From: Gonocerus acuteangulatus
Taxonomy: Eukaryota; Arthropoda; Insecta; Hemiptera; Coreidae
Assembly: GCA_946811695.1 (NCBI GenBank)
Contig: OX328123.1
Coordinates: 46,193,753 to 46,257,752, forward strand
Reading direction: 5' to 3'
Length of the DNA stretch: 64,000 nt
In this document: positions 2,290-55,717 of the stretch, piece after piece
Layout: each line of letters starts with the position of its first letter
Position numbering within the stretch: the stretch's first letter is position 1
Translations under genes and position numbers: made by a program
The notes under the pieces: model-generated
The model's database searches: none
The model's input: only the letters and a program-made list of their open reading frames with translations
Told to the model about the DNA's origin: nothing

Positions 2290-3838
<1,549 letters not shown>

Positions 3839-3854
3839 ATGGTGGGAGACCTTT

Positions 3855-5252
3855 TAGCGCGGTTCCTCCCTATCTCCATACCGCTTATGAGGTTGACCTC
3901 ACGGCGCGATCAGGACGTGCCGACCAGAAACTGTCTCGTTTTAGACCCATAGATCACGAAAATATAGGTGGTTTAAATTTATATATTTATATATATGCTT
4001 GTCTGTTCGCTCTCTACCAAGCTCAAAAATGGTCCGATTTTGATGAAATTTGGGACAAAAATCTGTATTCTTAATTGAAAGGTCAAGTTCGTTAGCTAGC
4101 AAAATCCGCCCAAAGGAAGGTGGCGTTTGGGGCGAAATTCGCCCAAAACAAATCGTAACGCTTACGTTTTTGAGTTCATACGTTTCCAGGTACTTCTTTT
4201 ATAGGTTTCTTAACATTGGAAAACGAATGAAACCATTTTTGAGGCGATATCTGTAACCGTTTTTGAGAAAAGTGGAATCAATTTTTTCGCATGTCATTAT
4301 TTTATTGTGGGTACTTAAAATCGCGGGATTCAATTGAAATTTTTTCTGCATCTTGGAAATTAATCCCAACTGAGATGTTCAAATTTTGGTCATATTTGGA
4401 GTTAAAGAAGTATGCGAAAAAAAATAATTTTATTAATAGACATGAAAAGTTTTCGGATGTTTCATACATTTTTCGTAAATATCTCGATAACGGTTGGGAA
4501 ATCGTAGTAAGTGGAAGGCGACCACTTCGAATGCTTGCTAAATTCTCTACAAAAAAGGTTCTGAAGCATTATTCGATGGGACAACATCAATCACAGATAC
4601 AAGCTCTAAAAACGTAAAAAGTGCTTGTTTTGTTGTTTTGAAAGGGTTTTTCTATTTGTTTATCTCACTTTTTAATAGGTTGTTTTTTGTTTTAAATTGC
4701 ATTTATCAGTAAAATAAGTATTATAGTAAAATAAGCAAAGAAACGGTAAAAGGTATAGGTAATACGTTTGGAACAGCTGTAGAAATCAAGATGGCTGTGG
4801 CTAACCATGATGGTGTATACATAGGTTAGTTTTGATTTCTCCTATCTATATAACCTTCCTCCTGCTACAACTGAAGTTATCATTATTTGTTATTTTATAG
4901 AAAGATTTAACCCACGAGAGAATGAAATTTTATTTCCCATGAAGCACATATTTACAGTTGATTATTACAGTGAAACGAATTTGCTAGTAAAACGAGGAAA
5001 TTAAAATGACTACGAATTTTCGGTTGTTTGAAATAGAGCCTGCTGAGCAGTATTCGTAGAGTGAGTAAGTTTTTAGTACATAATTGTATTGACTTATTCA
5101 GCCTTTCTCAAGAATGAGGATTAAGAATTATCCGCTTCTGTCTAAGTTGGCTACTGTCAGTTTCCTGTTATTTGTGATGACTAATCAGCTCCACTTCTTC
5201 GAGATATACGGAACCGCGCTAAGATGACGCAGTTCCTGCGAGTCGGACTTTT
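3855..5252 (-). mobile_element. Family A element, minus orientation
   Basis: Begins on the plus strand with TTTTAGCGCGGTTCCTCCC and ends with GAACCGCGCTAAGATGACGC and GCGAGTCGGACTTTTT, so both conserved termini are present. It abuts the previous copy head to head, leaving only about 17 bp between the two hairpin ends. The AT core is short here (about 3980-4000). Small open frames (for example 4291-4617) match repeat interior found in other copies and are not genes. Confidence 0.65.
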
Positions 5253-5484
5253 TGTGGGCCACACCAAATCAGAGCAAGGACGGAAAATGAAAGAAAAAAC
5301 AGAGGTTGAAAAAAGAAAAACGATCAAATGGAGTGAATAAAAATATTTAAATTCATTCCAATATAAAGGTTAAGGTATTTAAGAAAATTGTATTTCGGGC
5401 AATCAAAACAGCCAAATATTTGTTCAAACCATTCTGTCAACGTATTTTCTCATCAAATTAAATCTTCAGTCGGAACTTTTTTTT

Positions 5485-5622
5485 TTTTTAGCGCGGTTCC
5501 TCCCTCCCCATAGGGAGGAACCCCGCTTATAAGGTTGATACAATGAAACAATCCGGAAGTGCCTACAAGAAAATTTCGCGTTTCAGAACCCCTAGAGACC
5601 GAAAATAACGGTGGTTCAAATT

Positions 5623-5721
<99 letters not shown>

Positions 5722-6640
5722 CTGTTCGCTCTCTAGGTCGAAGACGAATGGTCCGATTTTGATGAAATTTGGTACAAAAATCAGTCGTCCAATATGAAAG
5801 GTCAAGTTCGTTAACCAGCAAAATCCGCCCACTGGAAGATGGAGTTTGGGGCGAAATTCGCGCAGAAAAAATCGTAACGCTTACGTTTTTGAGTTCATAA
5901 GCTTGTAAGTACTCTTTTTATAGGCTTCTTGGGCTAGGAAAACGAATGAAACCATTTTCAAGGCGATAGCTTTAACCGTTTTCGAGAAAATTGGAAAAAC
6001 AGTTTTTGAATACCGTTTTTGGTTTGGGTACTTAGAATCATGGGATTCAGTTGAAACATTTTCTGCATGTTCTACTTTCATTAAAACTAATATGTTGAAA
6101 TTTTGGTTACGTTTGGAGTTAAGGAAGGGTTAGAATAAAATATTTTATTAACAGACTTAAAAAGTTTTGGTAACTTTGTATATTTTCCTTAATATCTCGA
6201 AAAAGGTTGAGAATCTTGGTAAACAAAACAATACCATTAGAAAGCTTACTAAATGCTCTACAAAAAAGGTTCTGATGAAAGTTTTGATTAGGCGATGTCA
6301 ATCGGAGAAATAAGTGCTTAAAACATTAAAGTAATTGATTTTGCTTATTCGAACTGTTCTTTTTGTCTGTTTTTATTCCTTGTTATTTTTTAATTGCTTA
6401 TAGTTGGATAATGTATTTTACAATAAAACAGATTAGGCAAAATAAGAAAAACAATTCATTGTTAGAAATATAGCTTGCCAAGAGAAAAAGATTCGTTGAC
6501 GTCTTTTGAATATTTTCAATTGCCTTTATGCTGTTGGTTTTTTTATTTTATTTTTTAATTGATTTTATCTGTAGAATTATTAATATAGTAAAAGAACACA
6601 GGAATGAGTGAAAATATTTGATATTTTCCAATTCATTGAA
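5485..6640 (-). mobile_element. Family A element, minus orientation, truncated
   Basis: Starts with the hairpin end TTTTAGCGCGGTTCCTCCC and has an (AT)n core at 5625-5717 and the conserved interior. The GTCGGACTTTTT terminus is not found on the right, so that end is truncated and approximate. Confidence 0.6.
5625..5717. repeat. (AT)n microsatellite
   Basis: TA repeat with one TGTATATATT interruption. Confidence 0.95.
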
Positions 6641-6795: not shown

Positions 6796-6953
6796 GGGGT
6801 CTCCCGTGGTCTAATGGCTAGCGCCTTGGATTCATAAGCGGGAGATGGTGGGTTCGATTCCCAACCTCCGGCAGGAATTTTATCATCCCACGGCTCGCTG
6901 GTGAAATTCCTCGCTACACCCTGGATGTCGGCGCTAATGACCTAGATGTAGAT

Positions 6954-9438: not shown

Positions 9439-10156
9439 AGGTGCACCTACACTGTACTAGTTCCGATCCGATCCAATTGCCACCGACTGTCGGTAGAAAA
9501 ACAAACACATGCATCTCAATGGAGGTGCCTACATTGGTCCCGACCCGATCCAATCCGGTCCAATCCAACGGCCACCGATTCTTGGCCATTTAAACTTTTT
9601 TGTTTCTAAACCGATTTTGAACCGACAAAGAAAAATGGCGCCAACCCACATTTTGAATTTCAAAAAGGTCTAGAGGTTCTAGATCTTAACAGATTTCCCT
9701 GCATATTCTTTTATATCAAAGGAAATAACATTTAGAACAACTTTGTCGATTCACATTTTTGTTTTTTGTTTCCCTTGTTTATTAAATTGCGTGGAAAGAT
9801 GTTTATAACCATCCAACGTCTATAACCTTCCAATATTTATAACCTTCTAATGTTTATAACTTCCAATGCCTAAAACCTTCTAGTTACCTTTCTTATAAAT
9901 TATTTTAAAATATAAATACCAATACTTCTCTTACCTCCAACATTCAACCTTATCGAAGGCTTATATGCTTATTAGATGGTATTTCTTAACTTAATCACTC
10001 ATTTTCACTTCACTACGAGGTCATTACTTACGAGCTGTGACTAAATCGGATCGGATCGAGTCGAGACCAATGTAGGCACTCACGTCGGCCGCTGTTGCCC
10101 ATTGTCGATCAAAAGAATCGGATCGGGCAAAATACGGGTCCAATGAAGGTGCAGCC
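9439..10156. mobile_element. MITE with TTA target duplication (PIF/Harbinger-like)
   Basis: This 718-bp insertion interrupts a SINE. TTA occurs at 9436-9438 and 10157-10159. Its ends are imperfect terminal inverted repeats: AGGTGCACCTACACTG on the left and GGCTGCACCTTCATTG inverted from the right. Subterminal blocks rich in GGATCGGATC-type sequence also recur in inverted orientation. There is no transposase frame. A 3-bp TTA duplication is characteristic of PIF/Harbinger, so the class is inferred from that. Confidence 0.7.
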
Positions 10157-10200
10157 TTAGATTCATAAGCGGGAGATGGGGGGTTCGATCCCCACCGGCG

Positions 10201-10229
10201 CACAGTGTAACGTCCAATGGACAAAAACC
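10201..10229 (+). other. 12-RSS-like end (heptamer, 13-nt spacer, nonamer)
   Basis: Heptamer CACAGTG at 10201-10207 and nonamer ACAAAAACC at 10221-10229 are both identical to the vertebrate consensus. The spacer 10208-10220 is 13 nt, within the tolerance of a 12-RSS. Confidence 0.8.
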
Positions 10230-11223
10230 TAAATTTTTGTTTTCTTATATTTAATTTTTAATCCTCTAGCTAAGTTTAGAAACTATTCAAGGAATTAAAA
10301 TCGTATAAAACTAATAAATATTAGTTTTATTTTGATCAACAAACACATTAGCAGTATTATAAACAAGGCAAAGTCTTTAAAACGTTCTTTATAGCAACAA
10401 TTAGTTTGAGCCTTTCTCGTTGAAGATAGGACAGTGTTCTTATTAAGTCATCCGAAGGAAATTACGTCAAAACTATTCCTTTTTCATCTGATATAATTGA
10501 TTCTGGGTAATTACTCCCTTATTATTTATCCTGAATTATTCTTCATTGATCTTTGACATTTTTTTTAAGTACAAAACCTTGATAGACCATAGCAAAAAAA
10601 CTTCATCTGAACACATCTCAAGTTTTTTAGAGCTTAAAACTTACCTCAATTTTAATGTACTGAGGGCAATTTAGTTTGCCGAAATTTGCCGATTCCAAAG
10701 ATTTTTATTTTTAAATACATCATCATTTTTTCTTCCAAATTTGAATAAAAATGTGGATAAATCCAAGAAGACGGTATTAATCCTTGGGCAAATGATTCAA
10801 TTTAATCTGCAGGATGCTCCTAAAGAAATATTAAGCAATACTAAAAAAACTGCCAGTTTAGTCCTTTATTATATGAAAAAAAATGTGGGTACGTGTTAAC
10901 CGCAGAGATAAAAACTCTTATATAAATACTGGTTGAAATAATATATCAACTTAGAAAACCTTGTTATTAATTTTTATCATAGAAAATGGTAAAATATTAT
11001 TATTCTATGGCAATATTACTATAATATAATTTACTACTATACTATTACTACATACAGTTATATTATATTTTATAATATTGTTATTAATAATATTATTATT
11101 TCTATTAATATTTCAATTAATCTTACTATAGCCGTATAGTATGCATTATTATGCTATTGTTACATTGTTTTGAGTTGATTTCAGTTAATAAAAATGCTTA
11201 TTTGAAAATAACTAGTGGTTAAT

Positions 11224-11262
11224 GATTTTTGTCCATAATCTCCACTACTTCGTTACACTGTG
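11224..11262 (-). other. 23-RSS-like end (heptamer, 23-nt spacer, nonamer)
   Basis: Read on the minus strand: heptamer CACAGTG (11262-11256), exactly 23 nt of spacer (11255-11233), and nonamer ACAAAAATC (11232-11224), eight of nine bases matching consensus. Confidence 0.8.
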
Positions 11263-12094
11263 CGGCGACAGGAATTTTCTCATCTCAGGGCTCGCTGAGA
11301 AAATTCCTGGCTGCACCCTGGGTTTTGGCGCTAATGGCCGACATTTTTCGATGTGCCATTAAAAAAAAATTCATTCTCTCTATATCCCAGCTAAACTTTA
11401 CTACTAGCATTCTAGAGAGAAATAACCTTTACACGCAAGAGGCGCAATTATACACAAAGTTTAGCGTAGGGCTCTCTATGTGCGTGCTCAGAAGTTTTCC
11501 CTAGGAAAACAGCCCTGTGGTCACTTTCAAAAGTCAACTTCGCTCTTACACAAGAAAAGTCGAGAAATTTGGCCTAATCCCACAGGATTGGCTAATTAAC
11601 TTTACGGAAGCTTGGCGAATTTCGATATATCTGCTGAATTTTTACTACTGACCTAAAATATAAGAAAACTGATAGGTCATCGATTCCCTTTACGTTGTCA
11701 CTTTCAAAGTGTTTTTGACTTATGTCATTTATATATACGGATAGGTATATGAGTTGGAAATTTCTGAGAAATGATTAAACTTCCGTGAAGCACAGTTCTC
11801 CTTCTTCTCATTGCACTGATAAAATTTTGAACTTCAAATCGAATCGTCGGCAAATAATAAATTTCGTTTTCATATACAAAATGTTGTTTTATCAAGATAC
11901 CACGAGGGAACCCCGACAAATACTACCTTCATATCATATATATACATAAAACACAGTGAATGAGATGAGAGGAGAAGGCAGACATTACTGCCACTCCCGA
12001 TGAAAGTTATGGTATATCTTATTTTAATTAAAACTGGTCTCTTTTTTAAACTATATACATTATTTACACTATTTACATTATTTTATAAGACAGG

Positions 12095-14370
12095 CTAATT
12101 AACCAGTAGTAAATTGTCTCGTGACCAATGGTGGCGAAGGCGTCGAGAAGGATTATGTGGGATGACATTGGAAGAGAGGGATCTGCCAAGAGGATTGGGG
12201 TGGGCTGGGAGTTTTGAGAAAAAGGTCAGGAATCGGGATTTGGCTAAATCATAGACAAAGGGTATTTCAGTGTCTCGATGGATGGTAAGGTTTGAAACGT
12301 AGAAAGGAGCGTTGAGGATTTTACGAAGGACTTTGGATTGGAAACGTTGGATAATTTTTATATTTGATGGCTTAGCTGATCCCCAATGTTCTATGCCGTA
12401 TGTCCATATCGGTCTTATTATGGTCTTGTATATTGTCAGTTTGTTTTTTGTGTCTAGTTTTGATTTGAGTCCAATTAGTCGTCGGAGAAGTCCGAAGCGT
12501 TTGTTCAGTTCTTGTCTCTTGTGTTTTATGTGTGTTTTCCAGGTAAGTCGCTTGTCGAGGTGGAATCCTAAATATCGAACCTTGTTAGACTGGGGTATTG
12601 GGATATTGTGGATTTTTACAGGAGGGCACTCAGCTCGTCGCAGGGCGAAAGTTACATGCGTACATTTCTGTGGGTTCATTTGAATCCTCCATTTGTTGAC
12701 CCATTTCTCGACGTCATTAAGGTAGGTTTGAAGTTTTTCAGATGCCAATTTAGGGTCGGGAGAGGATATAAGGAATGCAGTGTCATCGGCAAATGTACAA
12801 GTGACGATATTTGGGGTTGTTGGGATATCTGACGTAAATATAGAATAAAGGAGAGGAGCTAGAATGCTGCCTTGGGGAACACCTGCTTTAATGGTTCGAG
12901 GAGAGGAAATTGAAGAGCCGTATTTGATATGGAATGTACGATTTTCAAGGTATGATTGTAGGATAAGATAGAAATGGAAAGGAAGGAATGTTTTGAGTTT
13001 GTAAAGGAGTCCGAGATGCCACACTCGATCAAAGGCCTGTGCCACGTCAAGAAAGACACCGGAACAAAAACCTTTTTGCTCAAGTGTGGATGAAATGGTG
13101 TCACGGAAGACTTGTTAGTGGAATGCTGGGTGCGGAAGCCAAACTGGTGATCAGGGATTTTATCGTTTGAGTTTACTATGGGTAGGAGTCTTCTGTACAG
13201 GAGTTTTTCAAATACGTTTGAAATTATTGGGAGTAGGCTAATAGGGCGAAAGGAGCTGGCAAGTATTGGAGATTTAAGAGGTTTTGGAATAAGGATTACT
13301 TCGGAATGTTTCCAGGATGAGGGAAATCGAGTAGTACGAAGGATGCTATTAAATATTAGGGTAAGGAACATCAGGGTTTTGTGTGGCGGTGTCGAAGGAT
13401 ATTAGCAGTTATTAGATCAGGACCAGGAGATTTTTTAAGAGGGAGATGGTGAATTGTATACTTGACATCTGCAGGACTGATGGATTTAGGTGGTTCCGAA
13501 AGAGGAAGAGGTTCATCAAGAGAGTTCAGGATTTCAGTAGTGAATGTGGGATTAGTTTCAGGATTTGGAGTGAATACGGATTGGAGATGGTCGGCAAATA
13601 ACGTTGCTTTTTCTTCGTCACTTCGTGCCCAGGAACCATTCTCTTGGCGAAAAGGAGATGAGGTCAGTTGGAATTTTAAGATGTGCTTTGTTGCTTGCCA
13701 TGGGGAGTTGTCACTGGTGGAGAGGGAGGAAAGGTAAGTATCGTAATTGTCAGTTCGAAATTTTTTAAGTTCTTCTTTTAGCCGTCTCGACAGGTTGTTG
13801 AATAAGGTTTTATCGGAAGGGTATCGGTATCTCTGCCATTGGGCTCGTGCTCTGCGTTTTGCTGACAAGAGTTCAAGGATTTGAGGAGGGAGTTTTGAAT
13901 GTTGAGGAGAGGGCATTGGTTTACGTTGCTTGCTTGCGACTTTCATGCTGAATTGTATGGCCTGTGTAACTATTTCTGCAGCTCTATCCACGTCCTGTTG
14001 TGTTTTCAGTGCTGCTTTCAGATCAATGAAACAGCCAACTGTTGATTGAAACAATGGCCAGTCCACAGGTCCAGGGGTAAGAGTAGGTTTAGGAGGAAGG
14101 GGGATCGGAGAGGAACTAAGGGTAAGAAGGAGAGGAGAGTGATCAGAGGAAAGATCATCAAGAAAGTGCGATGTTCTGTGCTGCTTGGGGTTGATGGGAA
14201 GATTTCTCTTGTAGAGCAGCAGTTGGTTGTCTGAGGCGGAGGTTGCGAAAGCTTTGGATGGATTTATATATTTTACACCCGTGGTAGGTGGTTCTCTTCC
14301 TGGCAGTTTGCACACTTGGCTTTTGCATCGTTTGGCAGGGTACAATTTTGGGACATGAGTTCTTCTCCAC
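12095..14370 (-). pseudogene. Jockey ORF2: endonuclease remnant plus reverse transcriptase
   Basis: ORF2 normally encodes an AP endonuclease followed by reverse transcriptase. Only the endonuclease C-terminus remains (LSSDHSPLLLTLSS near 14160), so most of that domain has been deleted. The RT follows: KSPGPDLITANIL, then a frameshift near 13380, RPISLLPIISNVFEKLLYRR and HQFGFRTQHST, a second frameshift near 13115, the catalytic FLDVAQAFDRVWH motif A, GVPQGSILAPLLY, and motif C TFADDTAFL. The C-terminal part (RPIWTYGIEHWGSA, RRLRHHWSRDNLLLVN) is typical of Jockey. Catalytic aspartates of motifs A and C are intact, but the reading frame is broken twice and the endonuclease is missing. Confidence 0.85.
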
Positions 14371-15270
14371 ACTTAACACACTTTGTTGCATGATAGCAAT
14401 AGTTGTGAGTATGTCCATATTCTAAGCATTTGAAGCACTGCGGGATCTCATTTCGGCGTTGTCGTGGCTCCTCAACTTTGATTTGAGTATAAAGGAGAAA
14501 CCATTCTTTAAATATCTCTCTGCTCTTTTCTTCTTTAGCTAGATCAACGAAAAACCGTGGAAATGGAGTTTTGGTGGCAGGGTGTTTTACATTGTGAACT
14601 TGTTTCACGTTGTAACCTTTGTCTTTTAGTTCATCGATGATGTCATCAGCAGGTGTTGAAGGGTGTAGATTCCGTATAACTACTCTGAATGTTTTATCTT
14701 CCTTCAGTTGATAGCAATGAAAATCTGTACAATTTTATTGAGATATTGAATGATTTCCCTATAAGCATTGCTATCTGTGGGATATATAGCTGTATCCTTG
14801 AATCTCGTTTTGCAGGAAAATTTATTAGCAGCGATTATTTTCAATTTATGGCAAAATCTTTTGAAATCCGTAATATTTCGAACGAATATAGGCGGTGGCT
14901 TATCATGTGGTGGATTCGTATACTGATTTGATTTTTCTTTTAGTTTATTGTCCCCATTGCTTGATTGTTTTGTCTGTGAGGTAGATGCACTTTTGTTGAA
15001 AGTATTTTTGTTTTCTTGGCTGAGGTTTGTGAGAAGTGATTTTTTCCCTCTTGGTCTGAGAAAATATTTGTCTTCCTCAATTTTGGACGATCTGTTTGGA
15101 GACTTGGTCTTCGTTAGTTTTCTTTTTCGTTTACTTCTCCCATCATCTCCGTGTTCTAGATTAGACTCAGATTCGTCTTGTGTTGTGAGTTCCAGGCTAC
15201 TCGCGAGAGAGGATTCTTCCATAGCAGGGTTTTCAGTGAGTAAGTTTTCATTTAACATTTTTTGGTCCAT
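14273..15270 (-). pseudogene. Jockey ORF1 (gag-like), frameshifted
   Basis: ORF1 proteins of Jockey elements bind RNA and form the ribonucleoprotein. The frame opens at 15270 with a Lys/Ser-rich N-terminus. A one-base shift near 14724 moves it to the frame that gives a PRE_C2HC-type segment (TFRVVIRNLHPSTPADDI) and then zinc knuckles on minus-strand residues around 14470-14290. The first knuckle is intact (CFKCLEYGHTHNYC). In the second, CVKCGEELMSQNC, Leu replaces the expected His. The third (CANCQEENH) is cut off by a stop where sequence jumps to the endonuclease C-terminus. Family identity rests on the domain order and is strong; the product cannot be functional. Confidence 0.8.
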
Positions 15271-15430
15271 ATTTTAATCCATAAAAAAAAAAAAAATATA
15301 TATAGAATTAATTGTAATTTGAGCTGACCTGGTGAAGGAGCTGAAAAGATAATACTCGTATATTTAAAAGGCAATCAACAGCTGAGTGAGACAGGAAGTA
15401 GGAGGTATGGCTCGCCCCCCACCACTAGGC

Positions 15431-42430: not shown

Positions 42431-42661
42431 GCTTGGGATATTAACAATTAATATATTCTTTTGATATTTTTGAAGCATGTAATAAGCAACTACAATGATA
42501 TCTCGAAGAAAAGCGAGATTAAATGTGCCACAATGCAGAGGACTGACAGTATACAAATCTAAGCAGAAATTTCTCAATCCGCCTCCTCTCTCAATTATAA
42601 AGCTTTATAACAAAAAAATTTTCTCATTTACTTAATTCATTTTATTGCTTAATGCATCTTA

Positions 42662-43653
42662 TCCGCTTCCTCGAAAACACAGAAAATGCTGTAGTAATGA
42701 ACTCACCTACATACCCTAACGGACACCTCACAATCCCACCTTGGAGAGTAAACAATCTGAGAATTGACTTGACAATGACTAAATTTAAAAAAGCTGACGT
42801 GTCATCTCAAATTTATTACAGAGCGACATTTAACAACTTGACAGGAAGTAATCAAAATACACCAATAATATACACAGATGGGTCCAAAACTGAGAGCGGA
42901 GTGGGCGCAGCTGTTTTAGGAGAGAACATATTTCATATCAGCCTGCCATTAGACACAAGCATATATACAGCAGAGCTGCATGGCATACTTTTGGGCCTAT
43001 CCAACGTACGGACTACAATACCACATATAATACTATGTACAGATTCATTAAGTTGTTTACTCTCCCTATGCAACATCTACAACATCAACCCAATCATCAT
43101 CAAAATTGTACAAGAACTACTGAGACTAAAGAACCAACACACAATGGTAACAATGATATGGGTTCCTGGTCATGAGAATATCGGACAGTCTACATTAGCG
43201 GACGAACATACAAAACTTGCTACTAGAAGACAACTGAATGACCAGCACTTACTTACAATTCAAGACCTACAAATAACAATAACAGAAGCTATCCTGAATA
43301 GGTGGCATGCAACGTGGTATACCACTCAAGATAACCACCTAAGGGAAATAAAGAGCAAAAAACGACCATTCACGTCAAGCAAACAGAGCACAAGACGTGA
43401 CGAAGTTGTACTAACAAGATTGAGAATCGGACATACACGCCTCACTCACTCACACCTATTTACGAAACAAGACAAGCCAAGGTGCGAAGCATGTAACGTT
43501 CCTTTGACTATGAGACACCTATTAACAGACTGTATGAAAAGAAACAACCTACAGGTACCTCATGGCCTTAGCGAGCTGTTAGCAGATAGGAGCCTATATA
43601 TTGATACCATACTGACATACTTAAAGACCACGAATTCATACATCGAAATATAA
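42662..43653 (+). pseudogene. Non-LTR ORF2 C-terminus: RNase H plus zinc motif
   Basis: An uninterrupted frame, but its first codons (from 42652) lie in the duplicated target, so the protein is truncated and no native start exists. The RNase H domain degrades the RNA of the RNA-DNA hybrid. Counting from the Met at 42652, the acidic residues are all present: D76 (IIYTDGSKT), E108 (YTAELHGI), D131 (LCTDSLS) and D184 (LADEHTK), with H174 in WVPGHENIG. A C-x2-C-x7-H-x4-C motif follows (C278, C281, H289, C294), then IEI and stop. RNase H at this position is characteristic of the I/R1-type group; the RT is missing so the clade is not fixed. Confidence 0.8.
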
Positions 43654-46366: not shown

Positions 46367-46915
46367 GTGATTCGTCGCATTCTAGAAAGGGCTGTGAACA
46401 ACAAACTAAAAACTATGATTTCCCTCTCACAGAATCAAAGAGGATTTGTCCCAGGTCCAGGCTGTTTCATCAACTCCTCAATATTAAATAGCTGTCTGCA
46501 GGACGCAAAAAGGAAGAAGAAGGATTGTTGTGTTTTGTTCCTCGACATTGCGAAGGCCTTCGACAATATAGGTCATTCTCACATCATGAAGTCACTAAAT
46601 GAATTTCCTATCCCCCAAAAGCTGAAAAAACTGGTTCATGGGTTGTTGATAAATAACAAAACACAAGTTTTTGTAGACGGCAATAAAAAAACAAAGCCAA
46701 TATTTTTCAGTAGAGGTGTCCCTCAAGGCTGCCCTTTGTCACCCCTAGAATTCAATGTGGGAATCAATGGCCTTCTACAAGAACTACAGGAACATGATAT
46801 CCAAAAGGAATATGGATATAGGTTGGTTGAAGATATGACTCCGTTAACATCTCTTGCCTTTGCTGACGACCTATTGTTGATGTCTAACGGAATTGAAGAG
46901 GCAAAGTCTTTATAA
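46367..46915 (+). pseudogene. R2-like reverse transcriptase core
   Basis: Contains RT motifs in order: NQRGFVPGPGC, motif A CCVLFLDIAKAFDNIGH (D60 of this segment), RGVPQGCPLSPLEFN, and motif C SLAFADDLLLMSN (D167, D168). The catalytic triad is intact. The frame is open at the left only because of an upstream TAA, and stops at 46913. The following residues (GLSLNTDKCKAIIVEKK) are in another frame until an A-run near 46990. Confidence 0.85.
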
Positions 46916-46984
46916 ACCTTGTTCTTTCCTTTCTATGTAGGATTGGTCTTTCATTAAACACCGACAAATGTAAAGCTATCATAG

Positions 46985-48257
46985 TTGAAAAAAAAAGAAA
47001 GATTAATTCAATGCATTGACGGGACAGTAATTAGAGGAATCGCAGGAGAAGAAAGCATAAAATATTTAGGGATTAATTTCAAAGAGGAAATAAAATTTGA
47101 TGAGAAGACCACATTATTATATCTCAAAACTCAAATTGAAAGTTTGGTCTCATCTCCACTCCTTAAGGCCGATCAAAAAATCAACATCATGAATCAATAT
47201 ATTTGGCCAAGCCTGATCTACCCATTACAGTGTGCTCCTGTAAAAGACATAACGCCTTCTTTTCTCGAAAATGTCGACAAACTTCTAAGAAGTGCAGTAA
47301 AGGAGATAATGGCTCTACCCATGGACTGCCCAGACGCAATGTTATATGCACCCAGAAATGTTCGCGGTCTGGGCCTTGTCAGAGCGAAATGGGAGGCATA
47401 CCTCCAACATATAAACATTGCAAATAAACTTCTAGAAGATGGCAATGAATATGTGCAGAAAACAAGAAGACTGAAAGAAGAAAAAGAAGACTGTCTTAAA
47501 AAACTTGACCAAGAAGAGGATGAGGTCAGAAGAATTCGAAGAAAATTAAGGGAAGACTCTTTTCATAAATGGTGCCAGCTTCCGTCAAAGGGTAAGGGCG
47601 TGATTCTCTTCTCTCAATATAAAAAAAGTAATTCCTGGATGTCGACGAAAATAGGAATGTCTTGCAGCGAATGGAGCACAGCCATCAAGCTGAATTGCAA
47701 CTCAATTCCAGTTCGAACGATTCCTGGCAGAAGCTCAGGATTCCGTTGCAGAGCCTGCAACGAGCCTGAAACTCTCCCCCACGTCCTGGGCGTCTGTCAG
47801 AAATCAGAACTTCTAAGAATAAATCGACATCATAAGGTGCGAACCTATGTTGCTGATTTGTTCAGGAAGAAAACTGGATTTGAGGTGTATGAAGAAGTGA
47901 GCTGCATAGCAGAAGATGGTTCGACAAGGAGGGCAGACATTGTCGTCATAGATCGCCAGGCATCTACCGGAATTATTTTGGATCCGACTGTGAGGTTTGA
48001 GATAGACGAGAATCAGCCCTTGTCAGTTGACAAAGAGAAAAAAATCCATTTATGAAAAATGTATTCCCTACTTTCGTAAAAACTACAGGATCGAAAATTG
48101 GGAGGTAATCGGCCTTCTCTTTGGCGCAAGAGGCTCCATGCCTTCATTCGTACAAAATGTTTTCAAAAGATGGAACATTAGATGTGACTTTGAAACACTG
48201 GCTCGTTCGATAATAAAGGACTCCATTAGGATTGTCAATCATCATTTGTACGGCTGA
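46985..48257 (+). pseudogene. R2-like C-terminus: CCHC finger and restriction-like endonuclease
   Basis: 356 codons to 48055. RT thumb (KYLGINF, PLLKADQKINIMNQYIWPSL), a charged coiled-coil-like region (residues 155-192), the CCHC motif CRACNEPETLPHVLGVC (C255, C258, H266, C271) with H282/H283, then the endonuclease core RRADIVVIDR (D318) and ILDPTVRFE (D333), which fit the PD-(D/E)xK-type fold that nicks the target. A frameshift near 48030-48055 moves the C-terminus to another frame (ENWEVIGLLFGARGSMPSFV, ending IVNHHLYG at 48257). These motifs are diagnostic of R2-type rather than AP-endonuclease elements. Confidence 0.85.
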
Positions 48258-55539: not shown

Positions 55540-55717
55540 GGGGTCTCCCGTGGTCTAGTGACTAGCGCGCTAGATTCATAAGCAGGAGATGGTGGGTTCG
55601 ATCCCCACCGGCGCCAGAAATTTTCTCATCTCAGGGCCCGCTGAGAAAATTCCTGGCTGCACCCTGGATGTCCGGCGCTAATAGCCACGATTTGTTGATG
55701 CGCCGTAAAAAAAAAAA
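55540..55717 (+). mobile_element. tRNA-derived SINE, family 1, intact
   Basis: A 178-bp copy flanked by the exact 11-bp target duplication AATAAGCAATA (55529-55539 and 55718-55728). Head GGGGTCTCCCGTGGTCTAGT, B-box GGTTCGATCC, body hairpin (TTTTCTCA/TGAGAAAA), GATGCGCCGT and an A tail of about 13. It gives the empty-site reference for the two insertions at 9439 and 10201. Confidence 0.9.

Follow-up and report, generated by a model that had tools for sequence, protein, structure and literature searches.

The 1,062-bp sequence at 10201..11262 (+ strand) of the window, by which we mean the whole 64,000-nucleotide stretch of DNA analysed here, is very probably (about 0.93) a non-autonomous, MITE-like transposon of the Transib superfamily, whose transposases are related to the RAG recombinase by which antibody genes are assembled. 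Its ends resemble the recombination signal sequences (RSSs) of jawed vertebrates, with a spacer of 13 bp at one end and of 23 bp at the other. Both ends and the 13/23 layout are properties of a family and not a chance of the window copy.

Anatomy of the element and its insertion site

The RSS-like ends and the CGGCG flanks reported in the initial annotation are real, as direct reading of the sequence showed. The left terminus (10201..10229, + strand) consists of the heptamer CACAGTG, the 13-bp spacer TAACGTCCAATGG and the nonamer ACAAAAACC, and resembles a 12RSS with a spacer one base too long. The right terminus (11224..11262, - strand) is 23RSS-like, with the heptamer CACAGTG at 11256-11262, a 23-bp spacer and the nonamer ACAAAAATC. 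The consensus RSS, as given in PMC8289069, is CACAGTG followed by ACAAAAACC, with 12 or 23 bp between them. As had been annotated, the left heptamer and nonamer match this consensus exactly, and the right nonamer departs from it at position 8, where T replaces C. The element thus shares with vertebrate 12RSS/23RSS pairs the heptamer CACAGTG at both ends, ACAAAAACC at one of them, and a short and a long spacer in inverted orientation. It differs from them in the single base of the right nonamer and in the short spacer, which is 13 and not 12 bp, so that of the earlier description as "12/23" the asymmetry holds and the short length does not. Furthermore, vertebrate RSSs adjoin antigen-receptor gene segments, whereas the motifs described here are the ends of a transposon.

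The two ends have CACAGTGTAACG and ATGGACAAAAAyC in common, and their spacers differ by 10 bp, about one helical turn. An inverted repeat of 17 nt (94%) spans flank and terminus of the element. The sequence CGGCG stands on both sides as a target-site duplication, at 10196..10200 on the left (read in the sequence and supported by an uninterrupted site of the host repeat and by flank comparison) and at 11263..11267 on the right (read in the sequence and supported by flank comparison). When the window was screened for identical flanking 5-mers (at least 3 G/C) next to CAC ends that match at 9 or more of 12 positions and lie 150-5000 bp apart, the element was the only pair found.

The host repeat is a SINE-like sequence that the element splits (10154..11369, + strand; coordinates taken from the aligned flanks). 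Both flanks of the element can be aligned to three uninterrupted copies of the repeat in the window, at 6823 (+), 20546 (-) and 55571 (+). The empty site at 55603-55627, a CCACCGGCG site, has 2 mismatches to the 25-mer of the joined flanks. The SINE-like repeat contains GGTTCGATCC, which we take to be a B-box-like motif, and its head was judged tRNA-like by eye; ARAGORN and Rfam reported nothing anywhere in the window. By a crude motif check, copies of the element lie in or near the same SINE at 40 of 75 loci, and its CCACCGGCG stretch seems to be a hot spot for landing.

The left 29-mer of the element had no exact match in viral contigs, and no match was obtained in the plasmids searched. No published report of the element was found in a literature search with terms other than the name of the host. 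Retrotransposon remains are also present in the window, at 12095-15273 (-; RVT_1 and PRE_C2HC matches) and at 42601-43653 (+) and 46367-48055 (+; RNase_H and RVT_1 matches); viral contigs contained no relative of a reverse transcriptase from the window.

A multicopy family without coding capacity

To follow the element through the genome, the 1.106-Gb assembly (135 contigs) was searched with either end. A first look with the left 100 bp met 1039 candidates, and the 40 that were scored, the window's own copy included, were all 100% identical; with the right 100 bp, 1011 first-look candidates were obtained, and the 40 scored were 98-100% identical. Of the 40 rows scored with the left end, 37 loci remained as sample A once the window's own copy and two rows sharing a locus had been set aside. 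The 40 scored with the right end gave the 38 loci of sample B, after removal of the window's own copy and of one locus already in A. Because selection by one end introduces a bias at that end, the opposite end was read in each sample.

Right ends were located in 27 of the 37 loci of sample A, one of them cut by the locus edge, which left 26 readable. The spacer measured 23 bp in 24 of these, 22 bp in one (L013) and 13 bp in one decayed copy (L016); the heptamer was CACAGTG in 19 and the nonamer ACAAAAATC in 20. In sample B, where left ends were located in 33 of 38 loci, the spacer was 13 bp in 31 and the two others were decayed. CACAGTG was present in 29 of these left ends, and the nonamer was ACAAAAACC in 21 and ACAAAAATC in 3; the exceptions were L097, without a nonamer, and the decayed L108. 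Ends were not located in 10/37 (right) and 5/38 (left) cases. Some loci of sample A were too short to include the right end, and in at least one case, L038, a right end built in the same way is present (locus L048) but escaped the location method. The expectation that other copies keep ends and spacing was therefore borne out, with 13 bp in 31/33 and 23 bp in 24/26.

Among 51 distinct full copies, the median identity in the middle part was 96.5% to the consensus and 93.4% between pairs, so that the family is probably fairly young. These copies were filtered for recognisable ends, and conservation per position among them therefore says nothing about selection. The target duplications of the family are 5 bp long and GC-rich, with a bias for CGNCG. 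Identical 5-bp flanks were found at 18/26 readable loci of sample A (18/27 with the truncated locus included) and at 23/33 located ones of sample B. The most frequent flanking 5-mers were CGCCG (17/37) and CGGCG (7/37) in sample A, and CGGCG (15/38) and CGCCG (11/38) in sample B.

Two variant structures were observed. At L024 (G000:C22:20765800-20769700) three left ends stand in tandem, each after the same 60 bp and CGTTG, and a single right end comes last. Rather than separate insertions, this arrangement looks like a direct duplication that took in the flank together with the element's 5' part. A longer form of about 1.35-1.43 kb carries ~290 bp that are absent from the window copy near its position 786 (L064, L054, L053, L052, L063, L001, L002, L007 and others).

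The initial annotation had taken the element for a non-autonomous transposon, and this was supported by its many copies and by the lack of a transposase match in loci L001-L111 or the window. The latter were searched by tblastn (E 1e-4) with 123 Transib proteins, three from this genome and 120 listed relatives of the L112 transposase described below. L001-L111 represent 75 places, a number of which were retrieved two times, and a locus does not always span a whole copy. As controls, 4/4 transposase loci were matched; three of these are the sources of the three queries from this genome, and the fourth (L128) is not. A six-frame translation of a 22-copy consensus, inspected by eye, had no stop-free stretch much longer than 80 codons. 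By consensus translation and tblastn together, an internal transposase remnant was rejected for these loci.

Long copies were considered as autonomous versions and rejected. The open reading frames of L046, L057, L058 and L059 included no transposase-like frame, and L049 and L056 likewise had no Transib match by tblastn with the 123 proteins. By eye, the extra DNA in long copies resembles other inserted repeats. L057 and L058 have in common with the window (3421-4074 and 5453-5917) a recurrent repeat that contains a long TA-rich tract and the same frame. The element has the features of a MITE in that no coding capacity was found, copies are many and the ends are common to them. A length of 1.06-1.4 kb is long for a MITE.

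Transib transposases in the same genome

The link between the family and Transib is drawn from the CACAGTG termini and the CGGCG/CGCCG duplications that it has in common with the Transibs of this genome. A 56-aa query, which we take to be a Transib motif and which matches HzTransib of Helicoverpa zea (6pqn) at 2.4e-19, gave 682 first-look candidates and 150 scored matches in this genome (G000). Transposase sequences of the Transib type abound here and are diverse, with several kinds of ends. Among 14 transposase 3' flanks chosen from the 150 scored matches, 6 had a CGGCG/CGCCG junction followed by CAC, which continued as CACAGTG in 5 of the 6.

Three transposase-bearing elements were read. L112 (C31) has the target duplication TGGCG, spacers of 23/23 and the heptamers CACACTG and CACACAC. 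Its 498-aa frame comes after a separate frame. With HzTransib (6pqn) the 498-aa frame gave a match at 1.5e-100, and with amphioxus RAG1L (6b40) a weak one (E 0.0096). The organisms named among 120 listed relatives of this transposase are insects, which makes an insect or other arthropod the likely host, and PF26100 is listed on many of the 120; a Pfam library without PF26100 assigned no family to the L112 frame or to the 469-aa frame of the C5 element. The C5 element (3,665 bp) has the target duplication CGGCG, CACAGTG at both ends and spacers of 22/25 to CCAAAAATC. Its transposase is split over two frames, of which the 469-aa piece matches 6pqn at 6e-59. In the C1 element, of which the two ends only were read, CACAGTG stands at both ends, the duplication is CGCCG, the right spacer is 23 bp and the left nonamer is unclear. 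No intact transposase gene was recognised among those read.

A search for transposase-bearing relatives had been proposed earlier. It yielded Transibs with CACAGTG ends, but none with the same start: in C5 and C1 the heptamer is followed by GGAC, whereas the window family has TAACG, and among the Transib elements read no exact autonomous partner starting with CACAGTGTAACG was found. Nor did the transposase-bearing ones have a 13/23 layout (L112 23/23, C5 22/25, C1 right 23), and both results count against the Transib reading. The nearest start seen was CACAGTGTCACG, at the right ends of L125 and L126 with CGCCG/CGGCG flanks. L125/L128 was rejected as a partner, as its transposase is in fragments and no left end turned up within the 3.8 kb that were read.

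The family of the HzTransib transposase is thus represented in the genome of the element. HzTransib also has a heptamer-like terminal inverted repeat (TIR) (PMC8289069), and Transib insertions give 5-bp duplications (PMC7204232). In contrast to the element, HzTransib encodes its own transposase, and its TIRs are described in PMC8289069 as symmetric, with little or no similarity to a nonamer.

These data suggest a route by which the family may have spread. A Transib transposase encoded elsewhere in the genome would act in trans, binding the nonamer-like and heptamer motifs at both ends. Cleavage would take place at the heptamer border by the nick-hairpin route, which PMC6941560 reports for HzTransib and RAG, and the element would then insert into CGNCG-like sites, staggered by 5 bp. 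The SINE family would supply such sites in bulk.

The unequal spacers and the alternative readings

How the spacers became unequal is a question within the Transib explanation and not an alternative to it. The ends can be aligned once 10 bp of spacer, about one turn of the helix, are set aside, and the asymmetry could therefore stem from one small indel, which would leave both motifs on the same face of the DNA. From sequence comparison, it is the 13-bp end that may derive from a one-turn deletion, because in the transposase-bearing Transibs read every end with a readable nonamer has a long spacer. We slightly favour the reading that the asymmetry is an accident of the lineage, a 10-bp deletion in a founder with two long spacers that was tolerated by a Transib transposase indifferent to spacer length. 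Apart from the alignable ends, this is consistent with the spacers of 23/23 and 22/25 in transposase-bearing Transibs. It also agrees with the statements that TIRs are symmetric in most Transib families (PMC8289069) and that Transib spacers are of various lengths (PMC6941560).

Three points speak against an accident. The difference is one helical turn, and with the exception of the decayed L016 no readable end has the spacer of the opposite end, which a shared founder explains too. Moreover, asymmetric ends of 12/23 (±1) are listed for five Transibs in PMC8355894, namely Transib5 of D. melanogaster and Transib2, N1, N2 and N3 of An. gambiae; on the basis of Kapitonov and Jurka 2005, some of their motifs are given there as identical to canonical RSSs. 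These elements were compared with ours by description only, and as described they likewise have ends of a CAC-heptamer and a nonamer with one spacer of each length. Asymmetric Transib ends are thus already reported from fly and mosquito, and the family is a striking new example of them; its closeness to jawed-vertebrate RSSs, suggested earlier to be unusual for an invertebrate element, is not without precedent. Transib N1-N3 are non-autonomous by usual naming.

The 13/23 layout could instead reflect a pairing rule, by which a RAG2-less Transib transposase works efficiently only on a short together with a long end, and vertebrate RAG would pair these ends too. We regard such a rule as possible but doubtful. 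If it held, the 12/23 rule would have a foundation older than RAG2, and this could be tested on a natural multicopy element. Few Transibs are listed as 12/23-like in PMC8355894. To the question of how the 12/23 rule arose the family adds a further, replicated case, in which the heptamer equals the consensus at both ends and the nonamer at one. As the same genome also holds Transibs with two long spacers, a comparison within one genome and an assay are possible.

It is very improbable that the structure is instead a non-autonomous element of the RAGL/ProtoRAG kind, mobilised by a RAG1-like/RAG2-like pair. RAGL elements have in common with the family a CAC start and 5-bp, GC-biased target duplications (PMC7204232, PMC8289069). 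They encode RAG1L and RAG2L in convergent orientation, and the protostome RAGL TIR consensus CACTWMCAAACKTYKBB, as printed in PMC7204232, is not matched by the element's ends CACAGTGTAACG. The distal motif TR5 of ProtoRAG is unlike the RSS nonamer (PMC8289069), and amphioxus ProtoRAG has spacers of 27/31 (PMC8355894, PMC8289069). Transib transposase matches, on the other hand, are abundant in the genome, and the C5 and C1 Transibs have the same CACAGTG terminus with a CGGCG/CGCCG duplication. The RAG1 and RAG2 Pfam models (PF12940, PF03089) had no match in the genome, a result of little weight since control genomes were silent as well. Of the earlier designation "Transib- or RAG-like", the Transib part is supported, given the HzTransib-related transposases in the genome, and a RAG1 plus RAG2 nature is not.

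A chance resemblance of two unrelated sequences to RSSs, flanking DNA that is not mobile, can be dismissed: CACAGTG alone is indeed not rare in the window (4 observed, 2.72 expected), but in a first-order Markov model only ~1.3e-7 convergent pairs at most 3 kb apart are expected per window (exact heptamer, nonamer with at most 1 mismatch, spacers of 12 and 23 ±1), an empty site exists, and the other copies, many of which have both ends in common, refute it.
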